Origin: a virus
Strand: one strand, 5' to 3'
IMG/VR virus record: IMGVR_UViG_3300031841_004461
Coordinates: 1 to 26,042 of that record
DNA: 26,042 nucleotides
Shown piece by piece: positions 1-14,833 of this stretch. The notes under the pieces were generated by a model, which was given only the letters and a program-made list of their open reading frames with translations, was not told the origin of the DNA and searched no databases. Positions within the stretch are counted from its first letter, which is position 1, and each line of letters opens with the position of its first letter. A program made the translations under genes and the position numbers.

Positions 1-597
1 TACGCCACACTGAAAAGTGACATCGCCACTTATATGGCAAGGGATGATTTAGAGTTGATGATCCCTACGTTTGTAAAGATGTGCGAGTCTAGGATTAGGG
101 ATATTGTCAGGGTTAGGGCTATGGAGACAAGTGCTGACTTGACCATATCTTCTCAGTCTACGGCTTTGCCGGTAGGGTTTATTCAGTTGCGGCGACTGCA
201 TATTGATTCAAGCCATTACCGAAAGATGGAGTATGTGGCCCCAGATGTAGGCTGGCGCAATGAAAATGATGTTGCTGCAAGAAGCCCAGCGAAATACACC
301 ATAGAAGGAGAGAGCCTTATTGTCTTCCCTCCACCCTCTGAGGATGTAACAGGGAAAATTCATTACTTTAAGGCATTCGATTCACTTGCGTCAGACTCCG
401 ACACCAACTGGCTTTTAACCAACGCTTATGATGTGTACCTGTATGGGTGTTTGGCAGATGCAAAAGCGTTTATTGAGGATGATGAGCAAGCTTCAAAATG
501 GTTAGGGGAGTTTAACGAAGCCTGTACTCGAGTAAACCAGACGGCCAAAAAAGGCCGAAGAGGGCAGCCTATGGTAAGGAGATCAAATGCTCCTTAA
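1..597 (+). CDS. Head-tail adaptor-like phage protein, 5' partial
   Basis: The reading frame is open from the first base (Y-A-T-L-K-S-D-I-A-T-Y before the first Met at 34), and that upstream stretch looks like the usual N-terminus of podoviral adaptor proteins, so the gene very probably starts outside the window. Visible features are a helical N-terminus (DDLELMIPTFVKMCESRI) followed by a beta-rich middle and a C-terminal helix with a basic tail (KKGRRGQPMVRR). Proteins of this type sit between portal and tail in P22- and T7-like virions. It overlaps the next gene by 11 bases, as expected for a translationally coupled structural operon. The assignment rests on family resemblance and position only. 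Confidence 0.7.
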   Translation, partial: YATLKSDIATYMARDDLELMIPTFVKMCESRIRDIVRVRAMETSADLTISSQSTALPVGFIQLRRLHIDSSHYRKMEYVAPDVGWRNENDVAARSPAKYTIEGESLIVFPPPSEDVTGKIHYFKAFDSLASDSDTNWLLTNAYDVYLYGCLADAKAFIEDDEQASKWLGEFNEACTRVNQTAKKGRRGQPMVRRSNAP

Positions 598-6476: not shown

Positions 6477-7394
6477 ATGTCTGAAATAAACACTTGGGAT
6501 AAAGTAGCATCAAATAATAATAGCTCCCCGCCGAATGGCTGGCCAGAGAATATGAATTATTCTGAGGTGAATAATTCGGCCAGGGAAAACATGGCAGCAA
6601 CGGCAAGATTATATGCCGACATGAACGGAACACTTGTATCTACAGGCTCTTCAAATTCCTACACCTTGACCCCAAATAGGACGTTAGCTGCTTATTCGCC
6701 CGGGCTGGAGTTTGTGTTTGTTGCTAATAACACCAACACAGGAGCAGCAACATTAAATGTTTCTTCCTTGGGGGCAAAAGACATAAAAAACCCAGATGGG
6801 ACCGCCATATCATCTGGGCATATAGCAAGTGGGGAATACTACCGTGTAATCTACTCAGGGGTGCATTTTGTTTTGTTCCCCTATGTAACTGCCCAAGGGC
6901 TTTCTCTTAAGTTAGGTGATGCCCCCTCCGATGGACTTTCTTATGGACGAAAGGATGGCGCATGGGTTGGGTTAGGTGCTCTTGCTGTGGGTGATGTTGT
7001 CGCTCATGCCGCCAGAACGCCTCCATATCGCACATTAGAGTGTGATGGTTCAACGATAAGCAGAACCACCTATTCTGATTTGTTTTCCGTGATTGGAACA
7101 ACCTTTGGCAGCGGGAATGGGTCGAGCACATTTAAGATTCCAGATTTAAGGGGTGAATTTATAAGGGGGTGGGCCAATGGGAGAGGGGTTGACTCGGGCC
7201 GATCTTTTGGCTCCTTTCAGGGCGACAGTTATAAAAGCCACAACCACAGTTATACAACCTACGGGTCCACAGGTCTTGCTTACACACAAAGTGGCGTGTT
7301 TTTCAGAAGCCCTACAACCTCAAACTCTGGTTCATCAGGGGGCACGGAAACGCGCCCCCGAAATCAGGCTTTAATGTATTGCATTAAGTACTAA
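6477..7394 (+). CDS. Tail fibre protein with tail-collar domain
   Basis: A 305-residue fibre-type protein. The N-terminal 60 residues contain W-P-E-N-M-N-Y-S-E-V-N-N-S-A-R-E, typical of phage fibre N-termini. The middle is beta-rich (residues 60-140). Residues about 171-232 form a tail-collar domain (V-G-D-V-V-A-H ... L-E-C-D-G-S-T-I ... I-P-D-L-R-G-E-F-I-R-G). The C-terminus S-H-N-H ... E-T-R-P-R-N-Q-A-L-M-Y-C-I-K-Y is characteristic of receptor-binding fibre tips. It is probably the host-recognition protein, followed by its assembly protein. Confidence 0.85.
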   Translation: MSEINTWDKVASNNNSSPPNGWPENMNYSEVNNSARENMAATARLYADMNGTLVSTGSSNSYTLTPNRTLAAYSPGLEFVFVANNTNTGAATLNVSSLGAKDIKNPDGTAISSGHIASGEYYRVIYSGVHFVLFPYVTAQGLSLKLGDAPSDGLSYGRKDGAWVGLGALAVGDVVAHAARTPPYRTLECDGSTISRTTYSDLFSVIGTTFGSGNGSSTFKIPDLRGEFIRGWANGRGVDSGRSFGSFQGDSYKSHNHSYTTYGSTGLAYTQSGVFFRSPTTSNSGSSGGTETRPRNQALMYCIKY

Positions 7395-9997: not shown

Positions 9998-11155
9998 TCA
10001 TTTAGGCAGACTCATTGTGATGGGTTGGTAGGGTAATTCGTCAGCATTCTGGTAGCCTATGGTGGTTGATTCTTGTTCGTGGGCCATTAGATTTTGAATT
10101 TCTTCAGTGGTATAGCCTTCAGCTTTATAAAGCGTGGCTGATAATCCACGAACCTCGTGAAAAGAGGTGCCTTCTATTCCGCACGAATCAATCACTTCGC
10201 GGAACATTCTGGATAGCCGGTCTGGTGTTACTTGATATAGATGCTCCTTGTTTTCGTTCCACACCCTTTTTTTTGGCTTGTGTGAAATGATAAATGGGCA
10301 TCTTTTGTGTTTTAGAGATAATTCCCGCGCTCTGTCTATTTGTGTTTTAAGAATGGGGTGATCTTTCAGGCTCCATTTAAGCCTTGCTGCTCTTGCGCTG
10401 CCTTTTTGGGCCTCTGACTTGCTAACAACCACCCTAAGTTCACCATCTATAATATCCGTCCACCGAAGGCCGCATATATCGGCCTCTCTCGAGGTTGTGT
10501 AACGGCTGATTTCCATGGCAATTTGTAGGCACTCATAGCCTAGCTTTTCTGCCTCAGCATAGGCTTTGTAATAACCCGCTTGAGTTAATGGCTTGCGCTG
10601 TTTCTTAGGCTTCTGTTTTAGTAGTAGTCTTGGGCGATCATCTGCCGTGGTGAATGGGTTGTATTTTATCTTGGCGGCTAAACCCTCACCCATTAGCCAG
10701 TTAAAGAACCGTCTAAACTCTGCCATTCTCAGTTTTTGTTGGTGGTAGGTAAGGCCATCCCACCAGGACAAAAGGGAATCTCTGTTGATTTGCCCGATAA
10801 TAGGAAAGGCTTCTGCAAATTGATTCAGCGCGTAAGCTCTGTTTTTCCAGCTGGGTTTGCTTTTCAACTCAGGGTTAATTTTTTCCTGATAGGCGATATA
10901 TATGGGGACATGGTAGGCAAGGTTGTCTCTTTTCGGTATTTTTCTTTCTACTGGCAAGTCCTGACCGCGCAGGCCATTCGCCTCAGTCGCGGTCTCGTTG
11001 GCTTGGTCCACGGTTTCGGCTGAAAACGTCTTGAATGTCCCGTCAGGTCTGCGGTATCGGTAGTAACCAACACGGCCTTTCGGGTCTTTATAGAGGTTGT
11101 CAACGAGGGGGATTCCGTCTACTAATCTGGTTTTTTTAGGTCGCATGGTGGTCAT
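9998..11155 (-). CDS. int: Phage tyrosine-recombinase integrase
   Basis: A 385-residue integrase. Residues about 20-60 form an arm-binding domain (G-Y-Y-R-Y-R-R-P-D-G-T), 75-165 a core-binding SAM-like domain, and 190-370 the catalytic domain. Visible catalytic residues are R223 (T-T-S-R-E-A-D-I-C-G-L-R-W), H333 and R336 (S-F-H-E-V-R-G-L-S-A-T-L), H359 and nucleophile Y368 (T-I-G-Y-Q-N). It lacks the extra segment expected of integron IntI enzymes, so it should serve phage integration at the adjacent attP, not attC recombination. The excisionase-like gene is seven bases upstream. No strong ribosome-binding site precedes ATG 11155. Confidence 0.93.
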   Translation of the reverse strand: MTTMRPKKTRLVDGIPLVDNLYKDPKGRVGYYRYRRPDGTFKTFSAETVDQANETATEANGLRGQDLPVERKIPKRDNLAYHVPIYIAYQEKINPELKSKPSWKNRAYALNQFAEAFPIIGQINRDSLLSWWDGLTYHQQKLRMAEFRRFFNWLMGEGLAAKIKYNPFTTADDRPRLLLKQKPKKQRKPLTQAGYYKAYAEAEKLGYECLQIAMEISRYTTSREADICGLRWTDIIDGELRVVVSKSEAQKGSARAARLKWSLKDHPILKTQIDRARELSLKHKRCPFIISHKPKKRVWNENKEHLYQVTPDRLSRMFREVIDSCGIEGTSFHEVRGLSATLYKAEGYTTEEIQNLMAHEQESTTIGYQNADELPYQPITMSLPK

Positions 11156-11162
11156 TTGTAAT

Positions 11163-11375
11163 CTAGTCCGTTAGCAATGACAAGCCCGAGCTGGTTTTTG
11201 TTTCGCGCATATCATCATTTGCAGCGAACCAGTTCAGGTCTATATAAGGCTTCCCGTCGATCATTTTCCCCTTAACAACTTGGCGATCAATCCAGTCACA
11301 CCAGACAGACAGGGAAGGGCAGCAGCCTTTCTCGAAGAACTCCCGATTTGCCTTTGTGTGAGGGGCCAGCTTCAT
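11163..11375 (-). CDS. Excisionase-like DNA-binding protein
   Basis: A 70-residue protein directly upstream of int. The segment S-L-S-V-W-C-D-W-I-D-R-Q-V-V-K-G-K-M-I-D-G-K-P-Y-I-D-L resembles the winged-helix core of phage excisionases (helix, then a G-K-x-I-D-G-x-x-Y wing). Size, position and orientation fit a recombination directionality factor that bends attP/attR for excision. The match is by pattern only. Its ATG follows the short spacer that begins with TTATAACAAAG after the preceding gene. Confidence 0.6.
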   Translation of the reverse strand: MKLAPHTKANREFFEKGCCPSLSVWCDWIDRQVVKGKMIDGKPYIDLNWFAANDDMRETKTSSGLSLLTD

Positions 11376-12784: not shown

Positions 12785-12800
12785 TAATAACGTGTTATGG
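12785..12800 (-). repeat. Collapsed attC-like boxes after the 12795-13004 gene
   Basis: On the minus strand the stop of the 12795-13004 gene lies in CCATAAC, followed after two bases by GTTATTA. ATAAC-ac-GTTAT is a tight inverted repeat, as if an attC site had lost everything between its outer boxes. This could be chance; the argument is the repeated stop-in-box pattern in this operon. Confidence 0.3.
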
Positions 12801-13004
12801 CGCTACCAGAACTATCTCAGCTCTCCTTGCAACAATCTTTCTCCAGCCATGCAGACTCCAAGCGTTGTCGTCCACCCATAGGCCTCGTTTTTTCCGTTGC
12901 CAAGCAACCCTGTCGCTATCAACAGAGATTACTTTTAAGTGGTATCCAGTAGCGGCCTGTTTAATCTCGTCTCCGGCTTTTGGTGTTTGTCTTGGGTCAC
13001 GCAT
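12795..13004 (-). CDS. Small basic cassette-type protein (hypothetical)
   Basis: A 69-residue protein starting 15 bases after the R' box of the attC-like site at 13020-13076, with GGGAG seven bases before ATG. The sequence (P-K-A-G-D-E-I-K-Q-A-A-T-G-Y-H-L-K-V-I-S-V-D-S-D-R-V-A-W) suggests a small beta-barrel. Short leader and gene-box-gene packing are the usual layout of integron cassettes. It is the last gene of the array with a near-complete site upstream. Function unknown. Confidence 0.55.
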   Translation of the reverse strand: MRDPRQTPKAGDEIKQAATGYHLKVISVDSDRVAWQRKKRGLWVDDNAWSLHGWRKIVARRAEIVLVAP

Positions 13005-13019
13005 TTAATGTCTCCCGCG

Positions 13020-13076
13020 CCATAACAAGGCGCATAATTTCGGAAGCCTTCGGCTCCGGTTTGCTAATGGTTATAT
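13020..13076 (-). other. attC-like recombination site 1
   Basis: A 57-base imperfect inverted repeat after the 13071-13262 gene. Minus strand: outer box ATATAAC (containing that gene's TAA stop), inner stem CGGAGCC-GAA-GGCTTCCG with one extrahelical base, then outer box GTTATGG. Size, outer heptamers, imperfect pairing and stop-codon placement all fit integron attC sites. Confidence 0.7.
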
Positions 13077-13262
13077 TACTTCTCGCAGTTCAGCATTAAT
13101 CAAGTTAACAGCCCTTGTCATGTCGCCAATCTGCTCGTTAATCTCTTTAATTGTCGAGCTAAAGCATTCACTATCGTCGCTCAATAAATCAGCAACTTTG
13201 CACATTTCATTAACTGCCTTTGTCATTCTTTGCGAGGCTTCCGCCAAATCAAACTTAGTCAT
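13071..13262 (-). CDS. Cassette gene: small helical protein
   Basis: Start chosen at ATG 13262 (GGTG five bases upstream); an in-frame ATG at 13286 would begin inside the upstream recombination site. The 63-residue product is acidic and helical, with heptad-like spacing (M-T-K-F-D-L-A-E-A-S-Q-R-M-T-K-A-V-N-E-M-C-K-V-A-D-L-L). It resembles short coiled-coil phage proteins. It is framed by attC-like sites at 13278-13344 and 13020-13076. Confidence 0.6.
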   Translation of the reverse strand: MTKFDLAEASQRMTKAVNEMCKVADLLSDDSECFSSTIKEINEQIGDMTRAVNLINAELREVI

Positions 13263-13277
13263 AAATTCACCAACGTA

Positions 13278-13344
13278 ATATAACAATGTTAGGCAGCGGG
13301 AAAACTACGCTGCGCTTCGTTTCCCCTGCTACCAAGGGTTATAC
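13278..13344 (-). other. attC-like recombination site 2
   Basis: A 67-base imperfect inverted repeat. Minus strand: GTATAAC box holding the stop of the 13339-13545 gene, stem GCAG-GGG-AAAC pairing with GTTTTCCCGCTGC through unpaired single bases, and closing box GTTATAT. The stem sequence GCAGCGGGAA is shared with sites 3 and 6. Confidence 0.7.
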
Positions 13345-13545
13345 AGTTATATCTTTGCCGTCTTGATCAATGAAAGCCCATGATGGTTCAAGGACCAATA
13401 CAATTCTCAGCCGCTCTTTGCAGCTTAGGCAAAATGTTTCGGTGGAATCACCATCATTCAAAGTTGGAAAAACAGTCGATCCAGTGTGCCAAATTTCTTC
13501 GTCATTAAATTCGTGTTTACAGTGTGGGCATTTTGGGTATTTCAT
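13339..13545 (-). CDS. Cassette gene: zinc-ribbon protein
   Basis: A 68-residue protein with an N-terminal M-K-Y-P-K-C-P-H-C-K-H-E-F and a second pair F-C-L-S-C-K-E-R-L, a classic two-knuckle zinc ribbon. AGAGGA lies six bases before the ATG, and the leader begins at the R' box of site 3. The stop lies in the R'' box of site 2. The metal-binding prediction is solid; the partner or target is unknown. Confidence 0.65.
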   Translation of the reverse strand: MKYPKCPHCKHEFNDEEIWHTGSTVFPTLNDGDSTETFCLSCKERLRIVLVLEPSWAFIDQDGKDITV

Positions 13546-13565
13546 ATTAATTCCTCTGTGGACCT

Positions 13566-13624
13566 GTATAACAAAGCATCGCAGCGGGAAGCCTATTCGG
13601 CTCCCCTGGCTGCTGGGGTTATAT
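13566..13624 (-). other. attC-like recombination site 3
   Basis: A 59-base imperfect inverted repeat. Minus strand: ATATAAC box with the stop of the 13619-13828 gene, stem GCAGC-GGG-AGCC with unpaired bases on both sides of a short GAATA loop, and closing box GTTATAC. It is almost identical to site 6 outside the loop, which indicates a recent common origin. Confidence 0.75.
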
Positions 13625-13828
13625 GGCTAATTGTTTCCATTTATCCAGTTGAAAGCTCATATGGTCTGGAACTATTGTGTTATTAGGTGCTTTTACCCAC
13701 GAATAAAACTCACCTGCTATCCTTTTTACTGCTATGTACTTCTCTTGCTTCTTAAAGAAGAAAAGCACCGTCTTTTCAATTGTTAGCTCTGTTTTCCCAT
13801 TTACAACTTCGCTCTTGATTAATTTCAT
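13619..13828 (-). CDS. Cassette gene: small strand-rich protein
   Basis: Start chosen at the second of two in-frame ATGs (13828), because GGAG is then eight bases away; for the ATG at 13834 it would be only two. The 69-residue product is Lys-rich with alternating hydrophobics (L-T-I-E-K-T-V-L-F-F-F-K-K-Q-E-K-Y-I-A-V-K-R-I), suggesting a small beta-sheet protein. It is flanked by sites 4 and 3. Function unknown. Confidence 0.6.
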   Translation of the reverse strand: MKLIKSEVVNGKTELTIEKTVLFFFKKQEKYIAVKRIAGEFYSWVKAPNNTIVPDHMSFQLDKWKQLAI

Positions 13829-13856
13829 TTTCATCTCTCCAGTTAATTAGTACGCC

Positions 13857-13914
13857 ATATAACAACGCACTCAATCGGACTGCGCAAGCTTGCCGCTTAG
13901 CGCAAAGGTTAGGC
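13857..13914 (-). other. attC-like recombination site 4
   Basis: A 58-base site. Minus strand: GCCTAAC box containing the stop of the 13909-14082 gene, inner palindrome GCGgCAAG-CTTGCGC with one extrahelical G, and closing box GTTATAT. The outer part pairs less well than in the other sites. Box sequences match the RYYYAAC / GTTRRRY consensus most closely at the GCCTAAC end. Confidence 0.65.
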
Positions 13915-14082
13915 GCTACAGCAATTGCACGTAGGCTGCTCATTGCTTGTAAAGCTTTGATTAGCTGGTACATCTTTTCCGCATTTAGTCCACACCAGTT
14001 TTATTAGGTTTTGGTAAAAATTAAAATCCCCGCTCTCACAAGAATGTATCTTGCCTTCTTTGTCTTCGTATAAGTGGTTCAT
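13909..14082 (-). CDS. Cassette gene: 57-residue Cys-rich protein
   Basis: An ORF of 57 residues between sites 5 and 4, with GGAG eight bases before ATG 14082. The protein opens M-N-H-L-Y-E-D-K-E-G-K-I-H-S-C-E and ends T-C-N-C-C-S-A, giving five Cys that could bind a metal or form a small fold. A different minus-strand frame running through site 4 (13776-13973) is a shadow. The stop in the GCCTAAC box is the strongest support for this frame. Confidence 0.6.
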   Translation of the reverse strand: MNHLYEDKEGKIHSCESGDFNFYQNLIKLVWTKCGKDVPANQSFTSNEQPTCNCCSA

Positions 14083-14101
14083 AGTTCTCGCTCCGTAATG
14101 C

Positions 14102-14158
14102 GCCTAACAAGGCGCGTAAATTCGGACAGCATAGCTGCCGTTTCGCTTGTGGTTAGGC
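14102..14158 (-). other. attC-like recombination site 5
   Basis: A 57-base site with the most canonical boxes: minus strand GCCTAAC (stop of the 14153-14344 gene) and GTTAGGC. The inner stem is CGGcAGC-TAT-GCTGtCCG with extrahelical bases. Both outer heptamers fit the integron consensus. Confidence 0.78.
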
Positions 14159-14344
14159 GTTCCTGTCGTAAAAATACCAGTATGGCCACGAGAAAAATAA
14201 AACGACCCATACAGCCAGAAAAAGACCACTGTAAGGTTGTTGTACTTTGTGTTTGTGGATTATTGAATTGAACTTTGCTATTTGTGCAATAGCACCAATT
14301 ACCCACAACAAGCCTGCCAGCCAATATAATATTTCCATTTCCAT
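14153..14344 (-). CDS. Cassette gene: two-helix membrane protein
   Basis: A 63-residue protein with hydrophobic helices at about residues 5-23 (I-L-Y-W-L-A-G-L-L-W-V-I-G-A-I-A) and 40-58 (G-L-F-L-A-V-W-V-V-L-F-F-S-W-P-Y-W-Y-F), joined by a basic His/Lys loop. AAGGG precedes the ATG by nine bases. Membrane proteins are frequent among cassette products. An overlapping frame that reads through site 5 was rejected. Function unknown. Confidence 0.65.
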   Translation of the reverse strand: MEMEILYWLAGLLWVIGAIAQIAKFNSIIHKHKVQQPYSGLFLAVWVVLFFSWPYWYFYDRNA

Positions 14345-14366
14345 TTCGTTTTTCCCTTTCTCTCCC

Positions 14367-14429
14367 GCCTAACAAAGCATCGCAGCGGGAAGCCTCACAA
14401 GTTCGGCTCCCCTGGCTGCTGGGTTATTC
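14367..14429 (-). other. attC-like recombination site 6
   Basis: A 63-base site. Minus strand: GAATAAC box holding the stop of the 14424-14642 gene, stem GCAGC-GGG-AGCC with unpaired bases, loop GAACTTGTGA and closing box GTTAGGC. Outside the loop it matches site 3 almost base for base. It is the first site of the array in the direction of transcription. Confidence 0.75.
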
Positions 14430-14642
14430 CTCTGGAACAACAAACAACTGTGTACAACTAAAGGTAAGAATGCCGACTGTGAAATATTCTTTGTAGATGC
14501 AGGCATCAGATATTTTTTGTTGAGCGGCTAGCCTTTCTTCTTTAATGGCAAGGGCTTTTTGTGCATCCATTAATGTTATGTGCCCAAATAGCATTACAAG
14601 GCCTAGGCACAAAATACCAATTACTGTTATAAATTTTTTCAT
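14424..14642 (-). CDS. Cassette gene: membrane-anchored or exported small protein
   Basis: A 72-residue protein with a basic start (M-K-K-F) and one hydrophobic stretch at residues 4-24 (I-T-V-I-G-I-L-C-L-G-L-V-M-L-F-G), then a polar coiled segment (D-A-Q-K-A-L-A-I-K-E-E-R-L-A-A-Q-Q-K). It is a signal anchor or exported protein. AAGGA lies seven bases before ATG. It starts 14 bases after the csrA stop, so it is translated from the same transcript as csrA. Function unknown. Confidence 0.65.
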   Translation of the reverse strand: MKKFITVIGILCLGLVMLFGHITLMDAQKALAIKEERLAAQQKISDACIYKEYFTVGILTFSCTQLFVVPEE

Positions 14643-14656
14643 CTGTTATTCCTTTA

Positions 14657-14833
14657 TTAAGCCATTTCTTTTTCAGCTTTAATTCTTTCCGCCACTTCTT
14701 CACGATGAACAGATATATCCCTTGGCGCATTAACACCAATACGAACCTGATTTCCTTTAACCCCTAATACGGTAACGGTAATGTCATCACCAATTAAGAT
14801 GCTTGTGGATTCGGTTCTAGTTAAAATCAACAT
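14657..14833 (-). CDS. csrA: CsrA/RsmA-family RNA-binding translational regulator
   Basis: A 58-residue ORF, clearly CsrA. It opens M-L-I-L-T-R, contains [18 protein letters not shown] and S-V-H-R-E-E, and ends in a helix I-K-A-E-K. The RNA-contacting L4 and R44 are both present and the length equals the family's. By eye it is close to E. coli CsrA except at residues 7-13. CsrA dimers bind A-N-GGA loops, often over ribosome-binding sites, to repress or stabilise mRNAs. AAGGA seven bases before its own ATG could be an autoregulatory site (inference). It heads the cassette array in the phage's leftward operon. Confidence 0.93.

Follow-up and report, generated by a model that had tools for sequence, protein, structure and literature searches.

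An array of integron-type attC sites and gene cassettes in a phage early operon

Layout of the locus

The window analyzed here covers an IMG/VR record in full (26,042 bases), and it encodes phage structural, Erf, SSB, replication, and integrase genes. A minus-strand operon beginning at around 18051 carries the genes for Erf, an exonuclease, SSB, and CsrA, followed by gene 1 and then by six more small genes down to 12795. This array of small genes and repeats is probably part of the leftward early operon in a temperate phage, and the host of the phage is likely to belong to the marine Gammaproteobacteria. All of the features described below are on the minus strand. The csrA gene (14657-14833; 98.6 bits with NCBIfam NF002469, for which the cut-off is 73) is the early operon gene right before the array, and beyond the array there are a small excisionase-like gene (11163-11375) and a phage tyrosine integrase (9998-11155; phrog_1, 5e-29), which has no TIGR02249 match and is not an IntI.

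Each of genes 1 to 6 ends in a TAA stop within an NNNTAAC box, with an imperfect inverted repeat of 57-67 nt that closes in GTTNNNN, and the stop is found at +3 of this R'' box in all six sites. Gene 1 (14424-14642) appears to be a resident, or anchor, gene, and an attC-bearing homologue also heads the array of a related phage, L104; its 63-nt site (14367-14429; R''/R' boxes GAATAAC/GTTAGGC) is the proposed receiving site. Cassette 2 (14153-14344) encodes an apparent membrane protein of 63 aa and unknown function, and its site spans 57 nt (14102-14158; GCCTAAC/GTTAGGC). The products of cassettes 3 (13909-14082; 57 aa, containing cysteine) and 4 (13619-13834; 71 aa) are also unknown, with sites of 58 nt (13857-13914; GCCTAAC/GTTATAT) and 59 nt (13566-13624; ATATAAC/GTTATAC), respectively. 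Cassette 5 (13339-13545) encodes a zinc-ribbon-like protein of 68 aa, followed by a 67-nt site (13278-13344; GTATAAC/GTTATAT), while cassette 6 (13071-13286, with an ATG start at 13262) is followed by one of 57 nt (13020-13076; ATATAAC/GTTATGG). The cassette 2 gene had no match in Pfam, PHROGs, or PADLOC, and the PADLOC search gave no defence match.

A sequence-only reading had previously described this locus, and its observation was confirmed. It placed six integron-type attC sites at 13020-14429 of the minus strand, between csrA and the phage excision genes, as is the case, and its repeats of 57-67 bases with TAA in the first outer box (ATATAAC, GTATAAC, GCCTAAC, or GAATAAC) were confirmed in 6/6 sites. 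The next start, which it expected 10-45 bases after the repeat, comes after about 16-23 nt. The terminal boxes, given as GTTAGGC- or GTTATAY-type, were observed as GTTAGGC, GTTATAT, and GTTATAC, plus GTTATGG at cassette 6. Its sites 3 and 6, reported as almost identical with unrelated genes, correspond to those at 13566 (cassette 4) and 14367 (gene 1), which are 84% identical over their full length and differ by an indel of 5 nt in the loop, a single gap, and their outer boxes; the stem of the gene 1 attC is approximately a copy of the cassette 4 site. As to the extrahelical bases reported for the inner stems, the DNA folds of the bottom strands of 14102-14158 (z -2.63) and 13566-13624 (z -1.98) have the textbook attC shape, with one-arm bulges and an unpaired central spacer, while at the remaining four sites this shape is partial or absent in the minimum-energy fold. 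Two points can be added: a seventh cassette gene at 13004-12795 had been missed, and the gene at 14642-14424 looks like a resident gene.

Covariance models of attC

An Rfam search of the window gave no match, and we therefore built our own covariance models. The first of these, R1, derives from 16 attC sequences: 15 from integron loci in genomes of the order that includes a Microbulbifer host, plus Halioglobus found by IntI, and one aadA1 site, which its plasmid matches support. In A3, the alignment used for model building, one sequence reads ACTTAACGCC and not GTTTAACGCC, and one doubtful site was also put right beforehand. The second model, R2, was built from 113 R1 matches in IntI-bearing bacterial loci, and no window or L104 sequence was included in either. 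Both models are home-made, with a short calibration and rough E-values, and neither is the model of IntegronFinder. A simple box-and-hairpin heuristic missed the sites of L104, and the covariance models were used in its place.

With R1 and the filters off, five of the six sites came out on top among all window positions on both strands. With R2, the six sites took ranks 1 to 6 in a search of both strands of the 26 kb, all of them on the coding strand, with 27.7 bits for cassette 5 (E 2e-5, the best match in the window), 26.1 for cassette 2 (E 5e-5), 23.4 for cassette 4 (E 2.8e-4), 20.6 for cassette 3 (E 0.0015), 20.0 for gene 1 (E 0.0022), and 11.5 for cassette 6 (E 0.39, rank 6), followed by the next match at 9.4 bits. 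Thus, the covariance search that had been proposed as a check, although run with a home-made model from 113 bacterial attC sites instead of that of IntegronFinder, found exactly the six sites claimed and gave no refutation. In 80 tail-gene control loci (777 kb), R2 gave zero matches at E values up to 10. With six sites in 1.4 kb, the window meets, by our home-made R2, the CALIN criterion of at least two clustered attC sites found by a covariance model.

Register and cassette boundaries

IntI cuts attC at G|TTRRRY, and a cassette starts with TTRRRY and ends with its own attC up to the G. Because the cut falls at G|TT, the R'' box of a cassette should exactly complement the box before its own gene. 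This register was found in 6/6 cassettes of the window (2 to 7), the pairs of preceding box and R'' being GTTAGGC/GCCTAAC for both cassettes 2 and 3, GTTATAT/ATATAAC for cassette 4, GTTATAC/GTATAAC for cassette 5, GTTATAT/ATATAAC for cassette 6, and GTTATGG/CCATAAC for cassette 7, whereas the R'' and R' boxes of the same site are complementary in 1/6. The low-scoring site of cassette 6 keeps the register on both sides. In L104, the register is perfect in 5/5 cassettes, and by exact permutation a perfect register has a chance of 4 in 720 in the window and of 2 in 120 in L104. In other phage arrays, 17/31 neighbouring pairs were perfect versus 2/45 same-site pairs, and 0/50,000 permutations reached 17. 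We consider this model-free test to be the strongest evidence available, and it proves the unit of movement. The identity of the attC sites, the IntI-type joints, and the cassette boundaries are shown by sequence.

The register test also exposes the seventh cassette (12795-13004; 69 aa), which has GTTATGG (13026-13020) before it and the exact complement CCATAAC (12800-12794) at its end, where the attC site has collapsed (12785-12800; CCATAAC AC GTTATTA) to CCATAACACGTTATTA. The terminal GTTATTA matches the complement of the R'' box of gene 1 (GAATAAC) at 6/7 positions, as would be expected if the cassettes had been inserted into the attC of gene 1. Gene 1 itself is not bounded as a cassette, given that no GTTATTC box is present upstream of it.

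Cassette turnover in a related phage

The closest known relative of the window phage is L104 (a record of 41,872 bases), whose integrase is 84% identical, its excisionase-like gene 88%, its SSB 42%, and the upstream gene 54%. The order ssb, gene 1, xis, int is the same in both phages, and the C-terminal 32 aa of gene 1 are 56% identical to L104:5623-5799. From gene 1 on, L104 presents five attC sites with scores of 42.3 to 14.6 bits; none of its five cassettes is related to those of the window, and the sequence after the array is similar in both. Cassette turnover between the two phages is complete, with the neighbouring phage genes retained, and this is shown by sequence, although with a single close relative. 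The comparison of related phages, which the sequence-only reading had also suggested, consequently brought no refutation, the closest relative having a completely different gene set.

Support for insertion exactly into the attC of gene 1 is only partial, since the stem of this site differs between the window (14429-14367) and L104 (5794-5861) despite the conserved gene, and the terminal box of L104 does not match the R'' of gene 1. More distant relatives of the integrase had no attC match, and a search of viral contigs for the gene 1 family, with patterns that missed its best-conserved stretch, found only L104. One of the L104 cassette genes (6505-6822) encodes DUF5406 and has a 50% identical homologue in a Pseudohongiella genome, where it adjoins a related phage integrase, without attC. 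In another relative of the window phage, an apparent diversity-generating retroelement, recognized by eye from a reverse transcriptase and template and variable repeats, is located upstream of xis/int (L210:4900-6780).

Integron integrases and bacterial cassettes

As the sequence-only reading had stated, no integron integrase is in view: the window record (26 kb and maybe a fragment) has no TIGR02249 match, and no IntI was found in the L104 record. With no such match, the criterion for a complete integron (intI plus attI) is not met in the window, and the CALIN criterion of no intI nearby is met, within a record that may be a fragment. Relatives of the phage integrase are found in Microbulbifer, Pseudohongiella, Marinobacterium, Gilvimarinus, Aestuariicella, and similar genomes, and an IntI above the curated cut-off is present in 128/294 genomes of the probable host order, to which one of these relatives' genomes belongs. 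Given that neither phage record has an IntI and that these 128 genomes carry one, it is reasonable to suppose that the array depends on a host IntI.

The cassette 5 protein shares 58% identity with the product of G088:C13:2998-3195, a gene placed between attC sites in a bacterial genome that has IntI. This homologue is a cassette itself (GTTAAGC to GCTTAAC), the array around it contains seven neighbours that keep the register, and the attC sites of this genome share end sequences with those of the window, for example, ATAACCCCAGCAGCCAGG and GCGCCTTGTTATGG. The cassette 5 family is, by sequence, common to the phage array and a bacterial integron. The cassette 6 product has 45-53% identity to genes of the Vibrio plasmids pNV27-261K and pSA7G1, with no attC beside them, and a search of 391 genomes from the probable host order found no homologue. 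A concatenated search with four further window cassettes and two L104 cassettes returned only the known Pseudohongiella homologue of the L104 gene. Against INPHARED, neither megablast of 11.5 kb nor tblastn of gene 1 and cassettes 2-7 gave a match, and an exact search of viral contigs for the 3' half of the site at 14367 gave none.

We also observed the stop codon within R'' in 35/46 phage sites and in 9/28 sampled bacterial integron sites (p 0.0003). The G088 array has its stops within R'' as well, and this could possibly be a trait of the source clade.

Proposed mechanism and alternatives

We consider it likely that the region is an integrase-less cassette array (CALIN) in a phage early operon, arising through insertion by a host IntI at the attC of gene 1, and that the lineage gains and loses cassettes. 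According to this proposal, the attC at the end of the resident phage gene (14642-14424) would be the receiving site, a host integron integrase would make circular cassettes, and the same enzyme would insert them there in the phage DNA, cutting at G|TT. The cassettes would be read together with the early genes because the phage supplies the promoter, and a promoter-like site is found at 18111-18084. Cassettes would then come and go in the lineage while the surrounding phage genes stay. Because the closest relative has an entirely different set at the same spot, the phage lineage appears to exchange genes with bacteria via bacterial recombination. The earlier suggestion that the phage captures, carries, or donates cassettes using a host IntI is supported to this extent, with capture or donation by the phage itself still an inference that has not been shown. 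The action of a host IntI on phage DNA, rather than the uptake of a ready-made array, is also inferred, as no recombination has been observed; recombination of the window sites by IntI is inferred from their sequence, without assay data; and it is likewise an inference that the early promoter drives the cassettes and that the phage benefits from them.

The main rival, which we regard as unlikely, is that a bacterial block of cassettes was captured once per phage by homologous or illegitimate recombination, so that IntI acted only in a bacterial chromosome and the array is inert in the phage. In its favour, the register shows joining of the cassettes by IntI without telling where this took place, the close likeness of the stems at 14367 and 13566 could come from homologous exchange among attC repeats, and the record has no IntI. 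Against it, the two phages have no cassette in common, yet in each the same resident gene with an attC stands at the left edge and the array is followed by similar sequence; one-off capture of a block gives no reason to expect a conserved head together with a similar end in the two phages. Nevertheless, the near-identical stems of gene 1 and cassette 4 and the different gene 1 stem of L104 do not follow from simple IntI exchange, and they keep this rival alive.

A second and much less probable alternative is that the repeats are RNA-level elements of the operon, such as CsrA-binding hairpins, terminators, or processing sites, that resemble attC. The array adjoins csrA, GGA occurs in some of the sites, and as RNA they fold stably; however, the GGA motifs are in stems and not in loops of the predicted folds, the only site that a terminator scan gave within the array is on the opposite strand, and neither the register of boxes across cassettes nor the match to bacterial attC models is predicted by an RNA function. 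Finally, chance inverted repeats or an artefact of metagenome assembly (the contig is an IMG/VR virus record and was probably assembled from a metagenome) are all but ruled out on present evidence, as the same arrangement is found on a separate contig (L104), and model, stop position, and register agree.

Relation to known systems

Phage-borne attC clusters are of a known kind, since Qi et al. (2023; PMC9892861) found integrons or their components in 21 phages among 10,705 phage genomes screened and showed that IntI1 used five of the six phage attC sites tested. Like their CALINs, which occur in virulent and temperate phages such as Pseudoalteromonas phage PH101 and Tetrasphaera phage TJE1, the array that we propose to be a host-IntI product is an integrase-less attC array in a phage genome with its cassettes in one direction. 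What sets it apart is its position in an early operon, with a head gene that is conserved and cassettes that turn over fully. The relevant sections of that paper report no same-locus comparison of related phages, and in the literature searched we found no papers on attC in viral contigs. The window also resembles the sedentary chromosomal integrons of marine Gammaproteobacteria (G088, L267-L278) in attC structure, boxes, register, and one homologous cassette gene, but it has no intI or attI beside the array, its sites are short (57-67 nt), and its genes are very small.

What appears to be new is that the head gene is conserved while the cassettes turn over completely, that the array is set in an early operon, and that attC has a raised frequency in csrA-bearing phages. 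Turnover at the same locus between related phages is natural evidence that phages participate in integron traffic beyond merely holding attC sites, and it offers a possible route for the movement of cassettes between bacteria. It also suggests a ready supply of small early phage genes that can be interchanged and that may target hosts or competing phages, and it makes the question testable, as cassette gain and loss could be tracked in a phage-host pair with and without intI.

Other csrA-bearing phages

In whole-record scans, attC matches at E values up to 0.1 were found in 12/73 csrA-bearing viral records versus 0/50 records selected on other genes (Fisher p 0.0015), and 8/73 remain when support from the register is required (p 0.02). 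The link between csrA and attC is a correlation only, because some of the arrays are close to the end of a contig and could belong to flanking host DNA, and because the two sets of records are unequal in length and may also come from different habitats. An attC array is also present in G009, the record behind L074, which is outside the csrA set. A bolder reading, to which we lean a little less than to its negation, is that the phage lineage keeps a cassette dock, in the form of a resident early gene ending in attC, at which a host IntI would swap accessory genes, and that such docks are common in csrA-bearing environmental phages, which would make phages a standing part of cassette traffic.

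Like the window phage, L056 (G370; IMG/VR 3300025655_000105) is a csrA-bearing phage with an attC cassette array in its early region, but it encodes a true IntI (383 bits) as well as a phage integrase of its own, whereas the window record has none. This IntI (L308:14462-15448) is next to the cassettes, one of which encodes an RtcB RNA ligase, and the reading direction of the cassettes is towards intI, the reverse of that in class 1 integrons. In the phage G348 (L306, L307), which has the same type of head genes, attC sites are found in at least three scattered places, and among its cassettes are a partial C5 DNA methylase and, perhaps, an AAA ATPase. Many further IMG/VR contigs (L327-L347), in which phage and bacterial contigs were not distinguished, carry relatives of IntI; the four checked (L328, L331, L334, and L347) are above the TIGR02249 cut-off, and attC sites are often located upstream of these relatives on the same strand.
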